Below are positions 3,451-13,975 of a stretch of DNA of 64,000 nucleotides, piece after piece. Position numbers and translations under genes: made by a program. The stretch is from assembly GCF_020405225.1 (NCBI RefSeq), contig NZ_CP084472.1, positions 2,480,001 to 2,544,000 on the forward strand, read 5' to 3'. Position 1 is the first letter of the stretch. Each line of letters begins with the position of its first letter. Under the pieces are notes generated by a model that ran no database searches, was not told the DNA's origin, and saw nothing but the letters and a program-made list of their open reading frames with translations. This DNA is from Natrinema sp. DC36. Its GTDB lineage: Archaea > Halobacteriota > Halobacteria > Halobacteriales > Natrialbaceae.

Positions 3451-4656
3451 TCAGTAGGCGCTCATCCCGGTCAGTTCCTTGCCGACGATGAGCTTCTGGA
3501 TTTCGGTGGTTCCGTCCGGGATGGTCATCACGCGGGCGTCCCGATAGTAGCGCTCCATGCGGTTCTCGAGGTCCAGCCCCGACGCGCCCAGCACCTGCAG
3601 CGCGTCGCTGGTCGCCTCGATCGACTGTTCGCAGGCGTACCCCTTCGCGAGCGAGGAGAGGAGTCGAGCGTCCGGATCCCCGTCGACGAGCGCTTCGGCC
3701 GCGCTGCGGGAGAGGCCGCGCGAGGCCTCGATCGACGTCCGAACGTCGTAGAGCTTCTCCTGGACCAGCTGGTGCTGGCCGATCGGTTCGCCGAACGTCT
3801 CGCGCTCTTGGGCGTACGCCAACGCGTCCTCGAACGCGGCCTCCATGATCCCGACCGCCATGAACGCCATCCCCGTTCGCATGAACGAGAACATGACGTT
3901 GAGCGGCTTGTGCTCGAAGAACAGCTGACTGACGTTCTCGGGGAACGGGACGATATCGTGGATGTCGTGGCCGTCGGCGATCGCGTCGCCGAAGATAGTC
4001 GAGAACCGGTTCTCGACCGGGATCCGGACGTCGTCGAAAACCATTCGACCGTTCGGGACGCCCTTCCAGCCGAGCTTGTTCATCTCCTCGGTCTCGAAGT
4101 CGGCGTTCGCCCGGTCGACCAGGAACATGTCCTGGGCGTCCTCCGAGGCGTCGTGGGCGATGACGAGCGCGACATCGGCGATCTGGGCGTTGCCGACCCA
4201 CACCTTTTCGCCGTTGAGCACGAACTCCTCGCCGTCCTTGCGCGCGACGGTGTTCGGGTGGGCCGTGTCGCTTCCCCCCTCGGGTTCGGTCACCGCGAGA
4301 CAGCCGAGACAGCGGTTCTCCTCGAGTTTCGGGAGCATGGCCTGCTGCGTCTCGTCGGCGGCGAAGCGGACGAACAGCGACGGGAACGACATCTGGAGCG
4401 CGACGTTCAGGCTCGGCCACACGCGGCTGATCTCCTCCGAGGCGATGACGAACCGCCAGACGTCGCCGAAGTACTGGTCGACGGTGTCGGGGGTGAAGCC
4501 GATCCCGAGATCGTGCAACCCGTCGAGGTACCCCACGAGGTCGTCGCGCGTCATCGGGCCGTTGCGATCCGCCTCGTCGACGATCGGTTCGATCTCGGAC
4601 TCGAGGTACGCCCGGAGATCGTCGCGAAACGCCGTCTGGTCCTCGGTCAGGCGCAT
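3451..4656 (-). CDS. acyl-CoA dehydrogenase family protein
   Basis: 401 residues with the usual order: N-terminal helical domain, central beta domain with the FAD/acyl-CoA motif (CLAVTEPEGGSDT, about residues 138-150) and C-terminal helical domain with the FAD-binding QVLGASG segment. It would catalyse FAD-dependent alpha,beta-desaturation of an acyl-CoA and pass electrons to ETF. At the position of the catalytic Glu of most family members (YEGT) this protein has IPDGTTEI, so the base would be Asp. The gene follows the SCP-2 gene at 4658 with a one-base gap, so they form an operon. An acyl-CoA ligase and an SDR nearby suggest a small acyl-CoA degradation module. Substrate unknown. Confidence 0.93.
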   Translation of the reverse strand: MRLTEDQTAFRDDLRAYLESEIEPIVDEADRNGPMTRDDLVGYLDGLHDLGIGFTPDTVDQYFGDVWRFVIASEEISRVWPSLNVALQMSFPSLFVRFAADETQQAMLPKLEENRCLGCLAVTEPEGGSDTAHPNTVARKDGEEFVLNGEKVWVGNAQIADVALVIAHDASEDAQDMFLVDRANADFETEEMNKLGWKGVPNGRMVFDDVRIPVENRFSTIFGDAIADGHDIHDIVPFPENVSQLFFEHKPLNVMFSFMRTGMAFMAVGIMEAAFEDALAYAQERETFGEPIGQHQLVQEKLYDVRTSIEASRGLSRSAAEALVDGDPDARLLSSLAKGYACEQSIEATSDALQVLGASGLDLENRMERYYRDARVMTIPDGTTEIQKLIVGKELTGMSAY

Positions 4657-4657
4657 T

Positions 4658-5230
4658 CTATGACTCCGCGGGGACCTGTTCGGACAGCGAGTTCATGATC
4701 GGCGCGAGGCGCGTGCCCTTCTGCACCGGCCCGTCCATCTGGTACTTCTGCTTCATGAAGCCCTGAATCGGATCGACGCTGCCGACGATGAGGCCAACGA
4801 GCGTGTCCGCCGGGCCGGTGATCTCGAGCATCGGATCGGCGAGTTTGCCCGCGCCGCCGCGCATCGTCCGTGCGTCCTCGTCGACTTCGAGGTGGCCTTC
4901 CATCGGGCAGTCGTCGGCCTCGAAGTTGACGGTGATGTCCTCGTCGATGCTCTCGCGGACCTCGGGCGAGGTCTCGACGATGACGTTCATGCCGGCCCAG
5001 AGCAGTTCCTGGAACTGATCGGCGGTGTCGGGGTTCTCGGAGACGAACGACGCGATGTCCATCGATTCCATTCGCTGAACCACGCGGCCGAACGTCTCGG
5101 GGTATTCGCGGACGAGTTCCTCGGTCTGCCCCTCCATCTCGCCGAGTAGCGCCGGCAAGTCGTCTTCGAGTTCGTCGTCCGACTTCTCGAGCGATGCGTC
5201 GATCTCTTGGATGAGTTCGTCGTTCGTCAT
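4658..5230 (-). CDS. SCP-2 sterol transfer family protein
   Basis: 190 residues from the ATG at 5230. Longer in-frame starts would cross the promoter region and are rejected. The N-terminus is a Glu/Asp-rich helical stretch. The C-terminal half shows the SCP-2 fold pattern, with VNFEADDCPMEGHLEV and a final segment around MKQKYQMDGPVQKG. SCP-2 proteins bind lipids or fatty acyl-CoA. The stop lies one base before the ATG of the acyl-CoA dehydrogenase, so it is probably the first gene of a two-gene operon and may hand substrate to that enzyme. Confidence 0.82.
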   Translation of the reverse strand: MTNDELIQEIDASLEKSDDELEDDLPALLGEMEGQTEELVREYPETFGRVVQRMESMDIASFVSENPDTADQFQELLWAGMNVIVETSPEVRESIDEDITVNFEADDCPMEGHLEVDEDARTMRGGAGKLADPMLEITGPADTLVGLIVGSVDPIQGFMKQKYQMDGPVQKGTRLAPIMNSLSEQVPAES

Positions 5231-5789
5231 GGCTATCGGTTCGGGCCCGCCGGATGGGCGGGTCCCGCTACCTGTGAATAGGGAGCAACCGACGAACAGT
5301 GTGATCCGTGGAATACGCGGAGGTTTATATTCCATCCCGTGACGGTCGGCGGATCGATCTCGACTCAAGTTACGTGTCTACCGATCATGCCGCCCTCGGA
5401 TTCTCGACCACGGGTCGTTCGAAACGGCGTCGCGTCTCGAGTGCGATTCGAGAGAGCAGTGCCTTCTCGTCACTCAGATCGCCCTCTCACTCGGTCCCTT
5501 CAGGACGGAGAGACTGTCCGCTGCGTTTCGGTGAAGACGGCTTCTGAACGGCGTCTCCTCTGGCTCGAGTATTGCATCCGTTATACGATCCAGAATATGT
5601 AATTTTTATAATTAATAGTGGTTGCGGACATAGCAAACGTCGTTACTATACTATCATACCAGTGACCAGAGGATTTTCGCTGAAAAGCGCGATTATGGGG
5701 CGCTGTGCAGTCCTATCTATTGGTGTGAATTTCAACGGCAGGCACTGGAAAGCACTCTGCAGTTCCCACGTAACACAGAAGAAGGATGT
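5231..5789. other. 559-bp intergenic region, partly AT-rich
   Basis: Divergent intergenic space. It holds the promoter of the SCP-2/acyl-CoA dehydrogenase operon near 5323-5330. A markedly AT-rich stretch lies around 5580-5670, unlike the surrounding high-GC DNA. Open frames here are short and do not look coding. No repeat or RNA gene was recognised. Confidence 0.6.
5323..5330 (-). promoter_or_regulatory. TATA box of the SCP-2/acyl-CoA dehydrogenase operon
   Basis: Read on the minus strand the sequence is ATATAAAC, a good haloarchaeal TATA element. Initiation about 25 bp downstream would give a leader of roughly 70 nt before the ATG at 5230. Confidence 0.55.
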
Positions 5790-6038
5790 ATGAGACGAAA
5801 ACAAACCGAGCGAACCGAAGACGACTCGAGAAGCATACTAGACCGAGCGAGAGGACGATCGGCAGAGTCGACTTCGGACGAGTCGGGGAGCTGGTTCGAT
5901 CGAGCCAGAGCGAAATACGGGCTCGGCGCGCTGCTCGTCGCCGCCGGGGTCGTGCTCTTCGTCTTCCCGGAACCGATCACGTCGACCGTGGGTCTCGCAC
6001 TGATCGTAGCAGGGGCCCTCATCTGGCTCGTCAGCTGA
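5790..6038 (+). CDS. small membrane protein with charged N-terminus
   Basis: 82 residues. The first 45 are highly charged (Arg, Asp, Glu, Ser). Two hydrophobic segments separated by PEPITS follow (about residues 46-61 and 67-81). AAGGA lies just before the ATG and could act as a ribosome site. Similar short two-helix proteins are widespread in haloarchaea, but no named family was recognised. Confidence 0.7.
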   Translation: MRRKQTERTEDDSRSILDRARGRSAESTSDESGSWFDRARAKYGLGALLVAAGVVLFVFPEPITSTVGLALIVAGALIWLVS

Positions 6039-6123
6039 TTCCGGTAGCCGAGCGCCGTCGGTCGACGAGGACGCCGATCCTCGAATACTCGATTTTTGGG
6101 CGTCGTCGGTTGGACGAAGCGAG

Positions 6124-7806
6124 TCAGTCGGCAGCGCCGGCCGTCGCGCGCTCGCGAAGCGCCTCCTTGTCCGTCTTCTCGATGTCGGTCAGCGGAATCG
6201 ACTCGACGAACGTTACCCTCGAGGGCATCGCGTGTTGTGGCACGTTCCCCTCGAGGTGATCGATCACGTCCGCCTCGGTCAGGTCGGCGTCCGGTTTCGG
6301 TTCGATGAAGATCCGGACCCGTTCGCTTCCCGGCCGCTCCGGATCGGGGACGCCGACCGTCGCGGGTCGTTTGACCCCCTCGAGTCCGTACAGGACCTCG
6401 TCGACCTCTTCGGAGTAGACCTTCAGCCCCGAGACGTTGATCATGTGCTTGACGCGGTCGACGACGTAGAACCGCCCCTCGGAATCGACTTTCGCGATGT
6501 CGCCGGTGGCCACGTACCCCTCGTCGTCGAAGGGGTCCCTGCCCTCGTCGAGGTATCCCTTCATCCGCTGGGGGCCGTTTACCAGCATCTCGCCCTCCAG
6601 TCCGTCGGCCGCGGCCGCCTCGAGCGGAATCTCCTCGCCGGTGTCGACATCGCGGAGTTTGACGTCCGTGTCCGGGACGGGGATGCCGATGGTCGGCTGA
6701 TCGAGGCCGTCGTCGTCCGACGAGCCGGTCAAGAACCCGTGGATCCCGTGGATGTTGAAGTGCGTGATCGGGGACATCTCGGAGAGCCCGTACCCCTGGG
6801 AGACGCCGCCGGACTCGCGCTCGAACTCCGATTTCGTCTCGCTCGCCAGGGGTGCGGAGCCGGAGATGCCGAGCACCTCCGCCGACAGTTCTTCGTCGAC
6901 GAGCTCCATGAACTGGGTCGGAACTCCGAACATGATCAGCGGGTCGTGCGTCTCGACCAGTTCGCTCATCTGCCCCGTGTTCCGCGCGTCGGGAACGACC
7001 AGGAGGTCGAGCGCGAGCTCGAGCAGACTGTTGGTGATCGAGTAGCCGTACGAGTGGTACATCGGCAGCGCCATCACCGCCGCCTCGCTGCCGCGCATCA
7101 TCTCCGCCAGCTGGGACTGCGCGGCGACGCCCTGCAACGCGTTGGCCACGAGGTTGCGGTGGGTCAGCAGACACCCCTTCGGGAGGCCGGTCGTACCGCC
7201 GGTGAACAGCAGCGTGTGAACGTCCGTCTCGACGTCGAAATCGACGTCCGGGGGCGCTCGCTCGGCCCCCTCGATGACCGCCGGTAGCCACTCGGCTCCG
7301 TCGACCGCCTCGTGGTCGTCCGGTGGATCGGCCGAGTAGTCGTCCAGCGACGTGAGGATGATGTCGTCCAGCTCGAGGTCGTCCGCGAGCGAGCGCACCA
7401 GCTCGAGGTGTTCGTCGTGGCCGATCAGGACCTCCGGGTCGCCCTCCTCGAGCCGATAGGCGAGCGAGTCCTCGGCGTCGAGGAAGTCGTTCGGAATGTG
7501 GACGCCGCCGGCTCGCGAGATGGCGTTCGAGGCGACGACGAACTGGACGGACGTCGGCAGGATCGTCGCGACCCGGCTGCCCTTCTCGACGCCGCGCTCG
7601 CGTAGCGCCATCGCCAGTCGTTCGACGTCTGCGAGCACCTCCGGATAGGTGTACCGCTCGCCGTACTGGACGATCCCCTGTTCCGGGTAGTCGGCCGCGG
7701 CGTTCTCGAGGAATCGGTGGACCGGTTCGTCGGGATACGGCTCGAGCGTTTCGGGAATGCCGAACCGTTCGTACGCCGTCGACCAGAGTGTCGCGTCTCG
7801 GGACAT
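6124..7806 (-). CDS. AMP-forming acyl-CoA synthetase (fatty-acid CoA ligase)
   Basis: 560 residues, the usual length for the ANL superfamily. Motif I is LLFTGGTTGLPKG (about residues 195-207), the adenylate motif is QGYGLSEMSPITH, and the hinge/A8 region reads TGDIAKVDSEGRFYVVDR. The C-terminal catalytic lysine region is present as PLTDIEKTDKEALRE, where the usual Gly before Lys is Glu. It activates a carboxylic acid to acyl-CoA with ATP. Its neighbours on both sides (acyl-CoA dehydrogenase with SCP-2, and an SDR) point to fatty or alicyclic acid breakdown. Acid specificity cannot be read from sequence. Confidence 0.93.
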   Translation of the reverse strand: MSRDATLWSTAYERFGIPETLEPYPDEPVHRFLENAAADYPEQGIVQYGERYTYPEVLADVERLAMALRERGVEKGSRVATILPTSVQFVVASNAISRAGGVHIPNDFLDAEDSLAYRLEEGDPEVLIGHDEHLELVRSLADDLELDDIILTSLDDYSADPPDDHEAVDGAEWLPAVIEGAERAPPDVDFDVETDVHTLLFTGGTTGLPKGCLLTHRNLVANALQGVAAQSQLAEMMRGSEAAVMALPMYHSYGYSITNSLLELALDLLVVPDARNTGQMSELVETHDPLIMFGVPTQFMELVDEELSAEVLGISGSAPLASETKSEFERESGGVSQGYGLSEMSPITHFNIHGIHGFLTGSSDDDGLDQPTIGIPVPDTDVKLRDVDTGEEIPLEAAAADGLEGEMLVNGPQRMKGYLDEGRDPFDDEGYVATGDIAKVDSEGRFYVVDRVKHMINVSGLKVYSEEVDEVLYGLEGVKRPATVGVPDPERPGSERVRIFIEPKPDADLTEADVIDHLEGNVPQHAMPSRVTFVESIPLTDIEKTDKEALRERATAGAAD

Positions 7807-7963
7807 TCGTTCTCGTTACCGCTCCTGATTTGCTAAAGGATACCCACTGCCATCCGGGGGAGTTGAAGGTCGACACCGATGGACTCTCGGCTTCCGTGAG
7901 TGGGAACGCCTATCGAATCAGTGACCGAATCGCGATCGATACACCGGGAACGAGTTTGGCGAC

Positions 7964-7971
7964 GATATAAA
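7964..7971 (+). promoter_or_regulatory. TATA box of the SDR gene
   Basis: GATATAAA sits about 55-60 bp upstream of the ATG at 8026, giving a predicted leader of about 30 nt. It also decides the start, because in-frame codons further upstream would overlap this element. Confidence 0.55.
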
Positions 7972-8025
7972 CGACCTGCGATCCGTCGAGCAATTTCCTT
8001 CGTCGTCGCCGGTCACTCTCGGCGC

Positions 8026-8802
8026 ATGGACTTCGGACTGGACGACAAGACCGTGCTCGTCACGGGGGCGGGCGGTCGGATCGGGAGCGTCGACTGCGAG
8101 GTACTCGCCGCGGAAGGCGCCGACGTAATTGCGCTGGACGTCGACATCGATGCCGCCGAAACGGTCGTCGACGACATCGAAGACGCGGGCGGGACGGCCC
8201 GCGCGCTCGAGTGCGACCTGACCGATCGCGACGCGGTCGCGGAGACGGTTTCGGCGATCGACGAGGACGTCGGCGGCATCGACGTGGTGATCAACAACGC
8301 GGGGCTGGTCGACGCCCGCGACAGGATCGAGGACTTCGACGACGAGATCTGGGATCGCGACGTCGCGGTCAACCTGACGGGGACCTACAACGTCACCCGT
8401 GCGGTCTACCCCGGAATGAAAGAGCGGGAGTGGGGACGCATCATCACCATGTCCTCGGTCGCCGGCTGGCAGGGCGGCTTCGGTCAGGCCTCCTACAGCG
8501 CGACGAAGTCCGCGCTGATCGGCTTCGGCAAGACGCTCGCCCTCGAGGGAGCCCAGCACGGCATCACGAGCAACGTCGTCGCCCCGAGCATCGTCGTCGG
8601 CGCACTCGCGGACCTGCCGATCGACCAGTTGGAGGGGGTCGACGAGCACTTCGCCCGGATCGCGAAGGCCACGCCGATGCGACGACTGGGACGGGAGGAA
8701 GACGTCGCGAACCTGATCGCGTATCTCTGCTCCGAACAGGCCGAATACATCACGGGTCAGGTCGTCGGCGTGACCGGCGGCGTCGACCTCTTCAGTTTCT
8801 AG
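8026..8802 (+). CDS. short-chain dehydrogenase/reductase (FabG-like)
   Basis: 258 residues, classical SDR. The cofactor motif TGAGGRIG is at 13-20, NNAG at 90-93, the catalytic Ser at about 143-144, and Tyr157 and Lys161 in SYSATK. An acidic residue after beta-2 (Asp38, in ALDVD) suggests NAD rather than NADP. The C-terminal LCSEQAEYITGQVVGVTGG is typical of 3-oxoacyl reductase / 3-hydroxyacyl-CoA dehydrogenase relatives. Beside an acyl-CoA ligase and acyl-CoA dehydrogenase it may carry out the 3-hydroxyacyl step. An upstream in-frame extension to 7900 is rejected because it contains the TATA box. Confidence 0.92.
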   Translation: MDFGLDDKTVLVTGAGGRIGSVDCEVLAAEGADVIALDVDIDAAETVVDDIEDAGGTARALECDLTDRDAVAETVSAIDEDVGGIDVVINNAGLVDARDRIEDFDDEIWDRDVAVNLTGTYNVTRAVYPGMKEREWGRIITMSSVAGWQGGFGQASYSATKSALIGFGKTLALEGAQHGITSNVVAPSIVVGALADLPIDQLEGVDEHFARIAKATPMRRLGREEDVANLIAYLCSEQAEYITGQVVGVTGGVDLFSF

Positions 8803-9113: not shown

Positions 9114-9764
9114 TCACGGAATGATCTGTGTGAGGATTTTTGACTCGATCTTTCGCAGGTGGCCGCCCACTGTTCCACCGGTGCAGCCGAGCTCGTTGCC
9201 GATATCCTCGTGCGTCACCGCTCGAGGCACGTTGTAGTAGCCCATATCGACGGCGGTCTGGAGGATCTCCTGTTGGCGCCCGGTGAGCTGAGAGAACAGG
9301 CGGTCCGTGTTCGGTTCGTATTCCCCCGTCTTGAGGAGCTTGAATCTGATTCCGTCGGGAACGTCCGGAATGGCGTCCTGAAAGCTCCCGACGTCGCCAA
9401 TCATCGTGACGCGCAACCCGCCGCGCCGCGTGAACTCGAGGGGCGTATCGAAGATGAACTCGAACTCCTTGAGCATGCTCAACAGGCCGACGAGCCTGGT
9501 GTGAGCCTCGACGTGGATGTAGGCGTGAATCTCGTCGTCGACGCCCGAGAGCTGGTACTTGCATACCATCGGTGAGTCTTCCAGAATCGTCTCGAGGGCG
9601 TCCCGATCACCCGCGAATTGATAGATCGTGACGATCGTCTCGTCGGCGAGGAGGTTGACGTTGTGAAGGAGTTCGCGCGAGACCTCGGGATGGTCCGCGA
9701 TCCGCTTATCGACGGGGTGCAACCCTTCATCGTCAGGGATGATGATGCATTTTGCGTATCTCAT
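9114..9764 (-). CDS. HTH-10 (bacterio-opsin activator type) transcription regulator
   Basis: 216 residues. The C-terminus (about residues 160-210) reads LTGRQQEILQTAVDMGYYNV..AVTHEDIGNELG followed by a second helix-turn-helix and the closing LRKIESKIL, the layout of the haloarchaeal HTH-10 family. The N-terminal 150 residues form a mixed alpha/beta sensor domain without a recognised ligand motif. It is probably a DNA-binding regulator of nearby or distant genes. It stands alone, transcribed away from the methyltransferase region. Confidence 0.87.
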   Translation of the reverse strand: MRYAKCIIIPDDEGLHPVDKRIADHPEVSRELLHNVNLLADETIVTIYQFAGDRDALETILEDSPMVCKYQLSGVDDEIHAYIHVEAHTRLVGLLSMLKEFEFIFDTPLEFTRRGGLRVTMIGDVGSFQDAIPDVPDGIRFKLLKTGEYEPNTDRLFSQLTGRQQEILQTAVDMGYYNVPRAVTHEDIGNELGCTGGTVGGHLRKIESKILTQIIP

Positions 9765-9936: not shown

Positions 9937-10788
9937 TTACTCGGGAAGTTCGGCGGTGAAGTTGCCGTGAACTGCGATCCCGCGCTCGATGATTTCGTAC
10001 TGGTGGTAGAGCGTCACGCCCTGCTCGACGGACGACTCGCTCTTGAGGCCGAGCGCGGCTGCGATCCTGAGGAGAGGCGTGACGGCCAGTGAGAGCACCC
10101 ACTGGCGTCGCGACGACGGAATGATCTGCTCGTAGTGGTCGTCGAACGTCACGTCCGTGAATCCGAGTCCCTCGAGGGCCTCCCGGAACTCGCTGATATG
10201 CGCGAAGTCGGGAACGGCCCATCCGTCGAGGACCGTTCGTAACTTCTCCGCCTCCGGGTCGGTCAGCGCGGTTCGACTCCTGAAGCCGTCGGCTATCATG
10301 AGACGGCCGCCCGGCGCGAGGACGCGGCGAATCTCCTCGAGGACCCGTTCCTTGCGATCCGAGTGACAGACCGTTTCGATACCGGAGACCGCGTCGAACG
10401 TATCGTCTGGATACGGAATGTCGTGGTAGTCCCCGACGCTGAACTCGGTCGACTCGGAAACCCCGCGCTCGCGGGCGTTCGCCCGGGCTTCGCTGACGTG
10501 CAGCGGATCGATGTCGATGCCGTGGACCTCGGCTCCGTGTTCGGCAGCGACGTGCGTCGGGAATCCGCCGCGCCCCGTCCCGATGTCCAACACCGTGTCC
10601 GTCTCGTCGACCTCGAGCGTGTCGGCGTAGACGCGGTTGGAGTTCGTCATGGCTTCTCGGTGGGTCGTGGATTCGTCGTCGTAAAAGCCGTAGTGAAGGT
10701 TGGCGGTACTCCAGAAGACGCGATACTCCCACGCGGTCTCGTTGTAGAAGTCGACGATTTCGTCGGCGTCGAACCGTTGCGTTTGCAT
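9937..10788 (-). CDS. class I SAM-dependent methyltransferase (tocopherol/sarcosine MT-like)
   Basis: 283 residues from the ATG at 10788, chosen over an earlier start because a TATA box lies at 10843-10850. Motif I reads LDIGTGRGGFPTHVA and motif post-I is HGIDIDP, with FSVGDYHDIPYPDDTFD as motif II. The N-terminal phrase NLHYGFYDDES and the SNRVYADTL segment resemble gamma-tocopherol and related small-molecule methyltransferases. A hydrophobic stretch near the C-terminus (about residues 225-245) may contact membrane or a lipophilic substrate. Substrate unknown. Confidence 0.88.
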   Translation of the reverse strand: MQTQRFDADEIVDFYNETAWEYRVFWSTANLHYGFYDDESTTHREAMTNSNRVYADTLEVDETDTVLDIGTGRGGFPTHVAAEHGAEVHGIDIDPLHVSEARANARERGVSESTEFSVGDYHDIPYPDDTFDAVSGIETVCHSDRKERVLEEIRRVLAPGGRLMIADGFRSRTALTDPEAEKLRTVLDGWAVPDFAHISEFREALEGLGFTDVTFDDHYEQIIPSSRRQWVLSLAVTPLLRIAAALGLKSESSVEQGVTLYHQYEIIERGIAVHGNFTAELPE

Positions 10789-10944: not shown

Positions 10945-10994
10945 CTATTTGTGGCCGAATTTCGTATAAATCCCCCCGTATACAAGGAGGTAAA

Positions 10995-11132
10995 ATGATT
11001 ACAAATCGTGTTGGGTGTGTTCTTGTGTCATTCACAATGCAACACCGACTCGGCCGATTATCGGACGATTCAGGCCCGATCTCGGCGAATCGCCGCGAAT
11101 TTTCGGAGATACTAATCGATAAAAGGGAGTAA
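10995..11132 (+). CDS. possible 45-residue leader ORF with strong Shine-Dalgarno
   Basis: Small frame of 45 codons preceded by AAGGAGGT at 10984-10991, an almost perfect anti-16S match and unusual in a genome where leaderless starts are common. It ends one base before the ATG of the DUF6230-like gene (11134), whose own ribosome site (AGGGAG) lies inside the end of this frame. The peptide is not hydrophobic and resembles no family. It could be a regulatory leader peptide or a coupling ORF. Translation is plausible but unproven. Confidence 0.4.
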   Translation: MITNRVGCVLVSFTMQHRLGRLSDDSGPISANRREFSEILIDKRE

Positions 11133-11133
11133 T

Positions 11134-11739
11134 ATGTACAATAAAAAGCGACTAGTGGGCGGAACCGGTGCATCGTTCTTGGTTGTCGCGCTCGTAGGAA
11201 TGATCGTCCTCTCGTCGGGGACGGCCTACGCTGCGCCGCTGGCGAGCGGGAGCGGGTTCACCGTCGAGGCCGACGAGATCAGATCCGACGAGTTCCTCCT
11301 CTACCCCAGCGCCGGCGAAGGCGATCAAGGAGAGACGCCGGTCGTGGTCGTCGAGCAGCGCGGCGTCGAAATCGACGGACTGGTGCTGACGAGAGAGCAG
11401 GAAGTGCCCATGATGGACGGGACGATGGAGATCTCGTTCACCGCCGACGAGACGGTCACGGCGGACGAGCAGTACATCAAGCTGACCGGGCTGGACGCGG
11501 AGAACGCTGAGTTCAACGGTCAGGTCATCAACGCCCAGTCCAGCGAAAACCCCGAACAGCAGTTCCAGCAGACGGCCGGTGAGAACGCCGATCCCGAGGA
11601 GGGCTACCTCACCAACGTTAGCGGAGAAGCGCCCGGAATGGTTCAGGAAGACGTCGAAATCGACATGGTGTACCTCGCCTCGAACGAGATCACCCTCCCC
11701 GGTCTCGACGTCGGCGTTGAATACAACTCGAGCGAGTGA
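11134..11739 (+). CDS. DUF6230-like secreted protein
   Basis: 201 residues. A hydrophobic signal or anchor segment at about 8-33 ends in TAYAAPLA, a plausible signal-peptidase site. The exported part is acidic and rich in beta strands, with a repeating theme of short strands ending VEADEI, VEIDGLVL and TGLDAENAEFNGQVINAQ. That pattern resembles DUF6230 proteins of Actinobacteria, which are encoded next to DUF6114 membrane proteins; here the next gene is DUF6114-like. The arrangement suggests a secreted or surface partner for that membrane protein. Function unknown. The ATG has an AGGGAG ribosome site six bases upstream. Confidence 0.7.
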   Translation: MYNKKRLVGGTGASFLVVALVGMIVLSSGTAYAAPLASGSGFTVEADEIRSDEFLLYPSAGEGDQGETPVVVVEQRGVEIDGLVLTREQEVPMMDGTMEISFTADETVTADEQYIKLTGLDAENAEFNGQVINAQSSENPEQQFQQTAGENADPEEGYLTNVSGEAPGMVQEDVEIDMVYLASNEITLPGLDVGVEYNSSE

Positions 11740-11745
11740 TTTTCA

Positions 11746-12333
11746 ATGGCAACTCAAAACAGCCAGAGCGACTCCGAAACCGATCCCGACCGATTTGAAA
11801 GCCGGTGGAAGCGGGGAACCGGGTGGATCGGGAGCCGATGGAACCGGTTCAACGACTGGCGGACGCGACGCCCGTTCATGGGCGGCGTCCTGCTCTGTCT
11901 GGCTGGGATCCTCATCACCTGGGTACCGATGCAGATACTGCCCGATCTCATCTTCATCGGCGGAGAGATGGCGGGCTTTCTCACCATCGGTGCCCTGATC
12001 GGCGTGTTCGTCTTCCTGACGGGCGTGTACGCACTGTACAGCCCGTCTAAATCCCACGAGATCGGTGTTATCGGCGTCGTTCTGTCGATCTTCTCGCTGT
12101 TCGGTTCCCTCGGCGGGCTGTTCCTGGGGATGCTGCTGGGCATCCTCGGCGGCAACCTCTGTATCGCGTGGAAACCCCGAGACGACGTTGCCGACGACGC
12201 GCTGGCGGAACCGAGCAAGGTCGACCGAGCCATCGCGCGATTGCGAAAGCGAGTCGGACGTGTCGTCGAGAAAGCGAGCGCACGGCTCCGCGAGAGCGCC
12301 GAAACCAACACCCAACGGAGTGCCGACGAATGA
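11746..12333 (+). CDS. DUF6114-like membrane protein
   Basis: 195 residues starting six bases after the preceding stop. After a charged N-terminus comes RTRRPFMGGVLLCLAG, which matches the opening of DUF6114 proteins. About four hydrophobic helices lie between residues 45 and 140, the last glycine-rich. The C-terminal 50 residues are basic and helical and probably cytoplasmic. In Actinobacteria DUF6114 proteins are encoded beside DUF6230 proteins, exactly as here. The pair probably forms an envelope complex of unknown role. Confidence 0.7.
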   Translation: MATQNSQSDSETDPDRFESRWKRGTGWIGSRWNRFNDWRTRRPFMGGVLLCLAGILITWVPMQILPDLIFIGGEMAGFLTIGALIGVFVFLTGVYALYSPSKSHEIGVIGVVLSIFSLFGSLGGLFLGMLLGILGGNLCIAWKPRDDVADDALAEPSKVDRAIARLRKRVGRVVEKASARLRESAETNTQRSADE

Positions 12334-12388
12334 CACCGGCACGAGCGACGACGCTACTACGAACGCAGCCGGTTGACTCGCCCGATAC

Positions 12389-13459
12389 ATGAGCCGACCC
12401 CGCACGCTCGGCGTCGTCTTGCTGGTCGTCGTCGGGAGTACTGCGACCGGAATCGGTACGCTCCCAGCAGCCGCACAGGAAGACGATAGCCTCTCCACGG
12501 TCGAACTCGGCGTGATCGAGGGTGCCACCGTCTGCGTCCAGCAACTCTCGTCGGATACCAATCGACTGGTCGTCCGCAACGACGCGTACGAGGACGTCAC
12601 CATCTATCTCGACGGGAACAGACGGGTCGAGCTCGAGCAGACGCAACCGGAGGCGACCATCGCGTTGCAGACCGACCGGCAAAACGAGGGGATAAACAAC
12701 CTCTCCGAGGTCGGCGAGTGCGTCACCGCCGACCGGAGCAACGTCGTCGTCAACGCTCGCTCGATCACCATGCGAGGACTCTCGACGAGCGGCTATTCGG
12801 TCGAAACGGACTCGAGCGCGGGTATCCCCGAGCCTGCGATATTCGACGCGCCCGCCAACGAGAGCGCATCCGCTACCGAGAGCGACGGGACGAACGACGA
12901 AACCGACGGGACGCCGGACGAGAATGAGGCCAACGACTCCGCAAACTGGCCGAACGGAGCGGACAGATCCGATGAGACGTTGGGTGACACTGGAAACGAA
13001 TCGAACGAGACTGACGGACGGGATGACGACGCCGTGACCGAACCGGTCGACGAACCCGGTGACCCCCTCGATGAGACCACCGGGACGGTCGACGACTCGC
13101 TCGACCGAACCGAAGAGGTGGTCAACGACACCGTCGATCACACTGAGGAGACAGTCAACGACACCGTCGACCACACCGAAGGAACGGTCGAAGGCACTGT
13201 TAATCACACCGAAGAAACGGTCACCGGGACGATTGACCACGTTGGGAACACCACCGAAGACGTGACGGAGACAGTCACCAGCGAACCGAACGAGACGGAC
13301 GAACAGCTCGTCGGATCGACCGAAGAGACGGCCACCGAAACCGGTAATCACGTCGAGGAAACGACCAACGAAACCGGTGACTACGTCGAGAAAACGGCCG
13401 AGGAACCGACCGACTTCCTTCGAAAAACGACCGAAGAGACGACGGAACCGCTAAGCTAG
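12389..13459 (+). CDS. secreted protein with C-terminal 11-residue repeats
   Basis: 356 residues. A signal peptide at 1-30 ends LPAAAQE. Residues about 32-135 form a beta-rich domain with two cysteines. Residues about 155-235 are an acidic Asn/Thr/Glu linker with several N-x-S/T sequons, suggesting N-glycosylation. From about residue 240 to the end, 11-residue repeats follow, such as VVNDTVDHTEE and TVNDTVDHTEG, then STEETATETGN and HVEETTNETGD. Such 11-mers form long amphipathic helices in LEA proteins and apolipoproteins. It lies 55 bp after the DUF6114-like gene and may be the third member of the operon. Function unknown. Confidence 0.75.
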   Translation: MSRPRTLGVVLLVVVGSTATGIGTLPAAAQEDDSLSTVELGVIEGATVCVQQLSSDTNRLVVRNDAYEDVTIYLDGNRRVELEQTQPEATIALQTDRQNEGINNLSEVGECVTADRSNVVVNARSITMRGLSTSGYSVETDSSAGIPEPAIFDAPANESASATESDGTNDETDGTPDENEANDSANWPNGADRSDETLGDTGNESNETDGRDDDAVTEPVDEPGDPLDETTGTVDDSLDRTEEVVNDTVDHTEETVNDTVDHTEGTVEGTVNHTEETVTGTIDHVGNTTEDVTETVTSEPNETDEQLVGSTEETATETGNHVEETTNETGDYVEKTAEEPTDFLRKTTEETTEPLS

Positions 13460-13513
13460 TAATGCAGACGCACGCAATCGGTACGCTGTTCAGAAACGTG
13501 GTGAACTTGAGAG

Positions 13514-13975
13514 ATGAGTGAATACGAGACGGTCGGCGTCGAAGCGAACGACCCATCGATCGAGGCGGTCGACACGTGGATCATCGCCGGCGCCGCCACC
13601 GTCGGCGTTCTCGTCAACCTCACCGGGTTGATGGTCCCGCTGCTCACTCGTCTCGGCGGCGGCGTCGTCGCCGGATTCATCGCCGCGTACGCCGTCGGTC
13701 GGATCGTCTCCGGCATCGGTCACGCGGTGATCGCGAGCGCGATCGTCGGTGGCGTCGCGGGAACGGTGACGGCGTTCCTCGGGACGCTTCTCGGACTGTA
13801 CAACGAACCGCCGCTGCTGGTACTCGCATCGATCGGCCCGATCAGCCCGATGCTCACGGGACTCGGACTGCCGAGCGTCGTTCTGATCGTGCTCGCATTC
13901 TCCGTGCTGACCGCCATCGACGGGTTCGTCGGCGGACTGGTCGGGAGCGGTCTGCGGGCGCTTCTCCCGTGGTGA
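13514..13975 (+). CDS. glycine-rich membrane protein (DUF5518-like)
   Basis: 153 residues with about four hydrophobic helices covering nearly the whole chain after a short acidic N-terminus (helices about 22-45, 48-68, 72-92 and 100-145). Gly, Val and Ala dominate. This resembles the haloarchaeal DUF5518 group of small membrane proteins. It follows the 11-mer repeat protein by 55 bp in the same direction and may belong to that operon. Confidence 0.65.
   Translation: MSEYETVGVEANDPSIEAVDTWIIAGAATVGVLVNLTGLMVPLLTRLGGGVVAGFIAAYAVGRIVSGIGHAVIASAIVGGVAGTVTAFLGTLLGLYNEPPLLVLASIGPISPMLTGLGLPSVVLIVLAFSVLTAIDGFVGGLVGSGLRALLPW

Follow-up and report, generated by a model that had tools for sequence, protein, structure and literature searches.

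What a pair of gene families that adjoin each other in Actinobacteria might be doing in a haloarchaeon, together with a secreted repeat protein, is the question raised by a four-gene operon on the forward strand of the window (the whole 64,000-nucleotide stretch of Natrinema sp. DC36 analysed here). The genes belong to families that are known but uncharacterised. Our codon-model gene calls, which missed some genes elsewhere (for example DUF6114 in loci L052 and L063, both recovered by genome search), agree with the original prediction on the position of all four. The first gene (g1, 11134–11739, 201 aa) matched the DUF6230 profile PF19741 with 48.7 bits against a curated cutoff of 27.5 (E 1.2e-12), and the second (g2, 11746–12333, 195 aa), a four-transmembrane protein with a W/R-rich N-terminus, matched the DUF6114 profile PF19609 with 91 bits against 27.9 (E 9.4e-26), so that both proposed family assignments were upheld by the profile searches. 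The two genes are 6 bp apart; by inspection the N-terminus of g1 is of Sec type, with a likely predicted cut after AYA. The third gene (g3, 12389–13459) encodes an exported protein of 356 aa in which an N-terminal domain of about 110 aa, hereafter the head, precedes an acidic sequon-rich tail, and it matched no Pfam family above cutoff. The fourth (g4, 13514–13975, 153 aa) encodes a small hydrophobic membrane protein, as had been predicted. Its match to DUF5518 in the window is sub-threshold (10.7 bits against a cutoff of 27, E 0.58); DUF5518 is matched, however, by 10 of the 11 members of the g4 family alignment (best E 8.6e-7), and the mean column identity over these 11 aligned copies is 67%. 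On this basis g4 is best described as a DUF5518-like member of a conserved family of small membrane proteins.

We surveyed 194 genomes of the haloarchaeal class. The distribution is patchy, DUF6230 being found in 13 genomes and DUF6114 in 21. Within the family of the window, the gene immediately 5′ of DUF6114 is DUF6230 in each of the 13 main-locus copies, the pair is followed by a third protein in 11 (L058 and L059 are without the third gene) and g4 is present in 12. The four genes and their flanks also occur in Natronococcus sp. AD-5 (Natrialbaceae), and relatives of this kind support the haloarchaeal setting of the operon. Homologues of g3 adjoin the pair in two further families. Locus L054 has the pair with homologues of g3 and g4 and one intervening gene, and L063 has DUF6230, DUF6114 and a g3-like protein (L063_9), with the g4 homologue upstream; in L064, L066 and L069 the third domain is fused to DUF6114. 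Four genomes from one genus of another family (G058, G086, G110, G168) carry five to eight DUF6114 copies each, many paired with DUF6230 and some fused to extra domains.

Several variants of the locus were seen in passing. In the genome of the window itself, about 16 kb beyond its end, a second DUF6230 gene stands beside a second g3-type repeat protein without DUF6114 (L045 6597–8683; C1, about 2559.6–2561.7 kb). In L046 (7810–8481) an apparent deletion has left the g3 head fused in frame with the final residues of g4. The DUF6230–DUF6114 pair of two further haloarchaeal families (L054, L064, L065, L067, L070, L071) has apparent S12/S7 ribosomal protein genes on one side and an apparent gene of the elongation-factor-2 kind on the other, identified by eye and not by profile. 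DUF6114 forms the C-terminus of a long multi-transmembrane protein in one genus, with no adjoining DUF6230 (L073 6589–8595, L074 7150–8691, L076 7015–8997). Also by eye, DUF6230 is fused to PKD-like repeats in L065 (10776–12806) and interrupted by inserted PA14-like segments in L069 (7188–8852). A survey of the phylum outside the class returned no copy like the haloarchaeal ones; it gave a single match that was short and partial (G364, reaching 28.7 bits only when its frame neighbours were included) and four others that scored below cutoff, and on this survey a wider archaeal spread was rejected. A viral origin was likewise rejected, the viral contigs searched containing no DUF6114 relative.

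The actinobacterial counterparts were reached with a consensus query, used for that step only, and the set comprises 80 loci from a scan of named genomes plus L077 and L078. In 80 of these 82 loci DUF6114 immediately follows DUF6230, and in the other two (L112, L150) the match falls at the edge of the locus or contig; together with the haloarchaeal copies, this confirms that the gene order is common to both groups, as originally proposed. DUF6230 is found in about a fifth (38/198) of the sampled genomes of the Streptomyces class. The haloarchaeal and actinobacterial DUF6230 families are related at a profile–profile E of 6.3e-12, above column-shuffle controls. In a quick tree of DUF6114 over 120 columns, haloarchaea and Actinobacteria split once, with support 99, and a recent transfer between the domains was rejected on this ground. 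A third exported piece is present in Actinobacteria as well: in 48 loci it is a C-terminal domain (CTD) fused to DUF6114, in others it is a second DUF6230, and in Streptomyces it is a separate gene encoding a signal, a low-complexity stalk and a head, with no Pfam family for the separate gene; in 15 loci no third piece was recognised by the profiles used. A third exported component belongs to the module in haloarchaea and Actinobacteria alike and is not a haloarchaeal addition.

The third domain also appears to be related to the first. The actinobacterial CTD matched DUF6230 at E 4.4e-6 over 133 columns, and the haloarchaeal domains fused to DUF6114 did so at E 1.4e-7. For these matches, and for that between the two DUF6230 families, none of 60 column shuffles was as good and no reversed profile came near. 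The head of the window's g3 matched DUF6230 at E 0.008 over about 30 C-terminal columns only; pooled with the second g3 type, it reached E 8e-5 over 115 columns. From the profile matches and shuffle controls we regard the actinobacterial third domain as distantly related to DUF6230; for the g3 head such a relationship is possible, the profile evidence being suggestive only. The AlphaFold2 (AF2) models point the same way for the actinobacterial domain, which is predicted as a confident beta domain (mean pLDDT 83.5) with a strand order resembling that of the DUF6230 model. The latter, made for the window protein, is beta-rich and mediocre (mean pLDDT 63), with residues 95–147 in model numbering unreliable. 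An actinobacterial DUF6114 fusion is predicted to have four transmembrane-length helices, mostly of high pLDDT. Structure look-ups with the DUF6230 model gave, among others, the SMP domain of TMEM24 (Z 4.0), LBP (3.3), BPI (2.9), TamB (2.8) and LptC (2.8), and with the CTD LptC (3.7), all weak matches in a range, 2.8–4.0, that can mean merely a common arrangement; the presence of lipid-groove proteins among them may be taken as a lead and not as a result. Searched by sequence, the solved structures in the PDB contained no relative.

The tail of g3 was the feature that had suggested amphipathic helices like those of LEA proteins or apolipoproteins. The protein is a secreted one with 11 N-X-S/T sequons and a true 11-residue period, as predicted: in residues 216–356 (13034–13456) the lag-11 identity is 0.415, compared to a maximum of 0.26 over lags 5–22 in 5000 shuffles. 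The hydrophobic moment of this region is 0.337 and peaks at 98 degrees (0/2000 shuffles), and the tail holds 10 sequons against 3.6 in shuffles (0/1000). The same moment pattern was observed, at 98.2 degrees, in L053, L054, L061 and L062; in L045 the lag-11 identity is present and the moment at 98.2 degrees is below significance. The hydrophobic phase of g3 is 202 degrees and that of the sequon asparagines 315 degrees, which places the sequons on the polar face; in five proteins these asparagines lie 109–179 degrees from the hydrophobic stripe, a phase-locking that is automatic within exact repeats. The amphipathic part of the original prediction thus held, and several relatives do score against the apolipoprotein profile PF01442, all below cutoff: the window's g3 reaches 15.4 bits and the best relative 40.2 bits (E 3.8e-10) against a cutoff of 90, so that neither the window protein nor any relative scored qualifies as a member. 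Of the LEA families in Pfam, none was matched by g3 at E≤1. As to the occurrence of the repeat protein in other haloarchaeal copies, the third protein is widespread, as given above, but the hendecad is found in only three of the 11 same-family third proteins (window, L061, L062), the others having acidic sequon-rich tails without the 11-residue period. The feature common to the third proteins, as far as their sequences tell, is the acidic sequon-rich tail and not the 11-mer, and the absence of the hendecad from most same-family relatives indicates that the repeat is one version of a variable stalk.

Upstream of g1 lies a 5′ leader of about 150 nt (10985–11133, forward strand), of which the first 55 nt or so (10985–11040) are conserved as the block AGGAGGTAAAATGATT......CGTGTTGGGTGTG..CTTGTG, also written AGGAGGNAAAATGATT......CGTGTTGGGTGTG..CTTGTG, preceded by a TATA-like box, TATAAAT, at about 10965. 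The block has a single match in its own genome and is kept in the majority of the 13 copies within the family, having diverged in L059 and L062. A small ORF inside the leader is disrupted or absent in L046, L052, L059 and L062, so it is the nucleotide sequence that is conserved and not a peptide, and a leader peptide was rejected; a structured RNA was also rejected, the consensus energy being -0.76 kcal/mol. Divergent from the operon, on the reverse strand, is a gene for an HTH_10 regulator of the HVO_0513_N family (9114–9764; Pfam HVO_0513_N, E 2.8e-45, plus HTH_10). Regulators of this type adjoin the pair at three locus types, that of the window, a second type (L056, L057) and one in another family (L053), and the window's regulator probably controls the operon. 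Between the two lies a SAM methyltransferase gene (9937–10788, reverse strand; Pfam Methyltransf_11), the membership of which is uncertain: it is in the same place in L058, L061, L062 and L079, is a truncated call in L059 and is absent from L046–L052 and L060.

The Streptomyces version of the module offers a functional clue. In S. lavendulae, as in other Streptomyces, the genes run thioredoxin, DUF6230, DUF6114, third gene, pyk, ackA, pta (the last three for pyruvate kinase, acetate kinase and phosphate acetyltransferase). Since pyk2 is SCO5423 (PMC7494193) and the DUF6230 gene stands three places before it, by synteny the Streptomyces DUF6230 gene is SCO5420, a sequence link that rests on gene position. 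SCO5420 is annotated as a cholesterol esterase and was upregulated almost 37-fold on Tween (PMC7494193), and the earlier statement that none of the members has a known function was accordingly not accurate. Two papers, PMC4098958 and PMC3514274, cite Xiang et al. 2007 for a cholesterol esterase family from actinomycetes that is described as novel. The literature searched mentions DUF6230 once, in passing, and DUF6114 was not found in it; nor did we find there any description of a module with three components, of a third domain resembling DUF6230 or of the SCO5420 link.

Taken together, these data lead us to favour, tentatively and at somewhat less than even confidence, an envelope module working on the external face of the membrane, where it would bind or move a lipid or some other hydrophobic molecule. 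DUF6114, as a four-helix membrane protein, would anchor or assemble the unit, and the ligand would be held by DUF6230 and the head of the third protein, two exported beta domains that probably share a fold. The acidic, potentially glycosylated tail would be a stalk carrying the head through the surface layer, turned in some species, including that of the window, into an amphipathic helix of hendecads with the potential to rest on lipid; g4 would be a haloarchaeal accessory membrane protein, and the neighbouring regulator would probably act on the whole. This reading draws on the adjacency of DUF6230 and DUF6114 in both groups, on the third exported domain that follows the pair and is related to DUF6230 in the CTD and the haloarchaeal fusions, on the likeness in strand order with the lipid-groove matches, on the Tween induction of SCO5420, on the apolipoprotein-like hendecads and on the lipid-metabolism genes upstream in the window (acyl-CoA dehydrogenase, AMP-binding ligase and SDR genes, 3451–8802, partly shared by L058, L061 and L079). 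Against it count the absence of these neighbours in much of the genus, where ABC transporter genes are found instead, the mediocre pLDDT of the DUF6230 model with structure matches that are all weak, the short g3 head match and the lack of hendecads in most relatives. The same domains and stalks could also build or decorate the surface, as an S-layer spacer or in adhesion, with DUF6114 as the anchor and no small ligand. The tails, acidic and sequon-rich in every third protein and variable in length and repeat type (proteins of 223–625 aa), are typical of stalks, DUF6230 has no invariant polar residues, and one haloarchaeal genus has long low-complexity surface proteins beside DUF6230 and PKD-like repeats fused to it. 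However, that a small beta domain and a conserved four-transmembrane protein are paired 1:1 in both archaea and bacteria points to something beyond a coat, as does the response of SCO5420 to Tween, and we consider such a purely structural role rather unlikely.

The original prediction of an envelope system for lipid or stress handling divides in two: lipid handling is plausible, though unproven, and LEA-like stress handling is without direct support. Protection against desiccation or low salt by an 11-mer protein would fit the hendecad amphipathic pattern, but the protein is exported, matches no Pfam LEA family at E≤1, is T/V/D/N-rich with poor helix propensity (mean penalty 0.62–0.68 kcal/mol) and lacks the hendecads in most relatives, which makes this role very improbable. 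A secreted lipolytic enzyme, cleaving cholesterol or fatty-acid esters as annotated in Streptomyces, would agree with the label of SCO5420, its strong rise on Tween, the synteny that makes it the DUF6230 gene and the actinomycete family attributed to Xiang et al. 2007 in those same sources. The alignments argue otherwise: actinobacterial and haloarchaeal DUF6230 share no conserved Ser, His or Asp column, within the actinobacterial proteins no His column exceeds 60% and the best Ser column is at 85%, and a Cys pair conserved in Actinobacteria is absent from the haloarchaeal proteins. Polar candidate catalytic residues kept with the Streptomyces proteins, as expected of the actinomycete cholesterol esterase family, were not found, and the tie of SCO5420 to the enzyme sequence is positional. 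We regard an esterase as quite improbable, and the module puts the correctness of the cholesterol esterase label in question. A bolder form of the lipid-binding reading, which we think distinctly unlikely as a whole, would see a lipid-handling system common to Haloarchaea and Actinobacteria, with two homologous exported lipid-groove domains and a four-transmembrane protein, in which the third protein repeatedly gains glycosylated apolipoprotein-like hendecad helices and the Streptomyces cholesterol esterase is a lipid-binding member and not a classical enzyme.

Among the closest known systems, members of the LptA/LptC, TamB beta-taco and SMP/BPI (TULIP) groups of lipid-carrying domains resemble DUF6230 and the third domain weakly in predicted fold, but differ from the window's module in that the latter has no sequence match in the PDB and no ATPase partner was identified. 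Apolipoproteins A1, A4 and E and apolipophorin-III share with g3 the 11-residue amphipathic period, and its relatives score against their profile; the scores are far below the cutoff, and g3 has a T/V/D/N composition and sequons on the polar face, so that the likeness is a convergent pattern and not membership. Another counterpart is the SCO5420 locus of Streptomyces, which has the same three-component order, homologous DUF6230 and DUF6114 proteins and a third protein that is exported, with a low-complexity stalk and sometimes short amphipathic stretches of 96–102 degrees. It differs from the window in that the Cys pair is found only in Actinobacteria, no g4 was recognised, the neighbours are thioredoxin and pyk-ackA-pta, and the third protein runs from stalk to head, whereas the haloarchaeal g3 runs from head to stalk. 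With a third exported component beside the pair, an actinobacterial third domain related to DUF6230 and SCO5420 as the Streptomyces gene, an unknown pair becomes a testable module, with a version in the genetically tractable Streptomyces.
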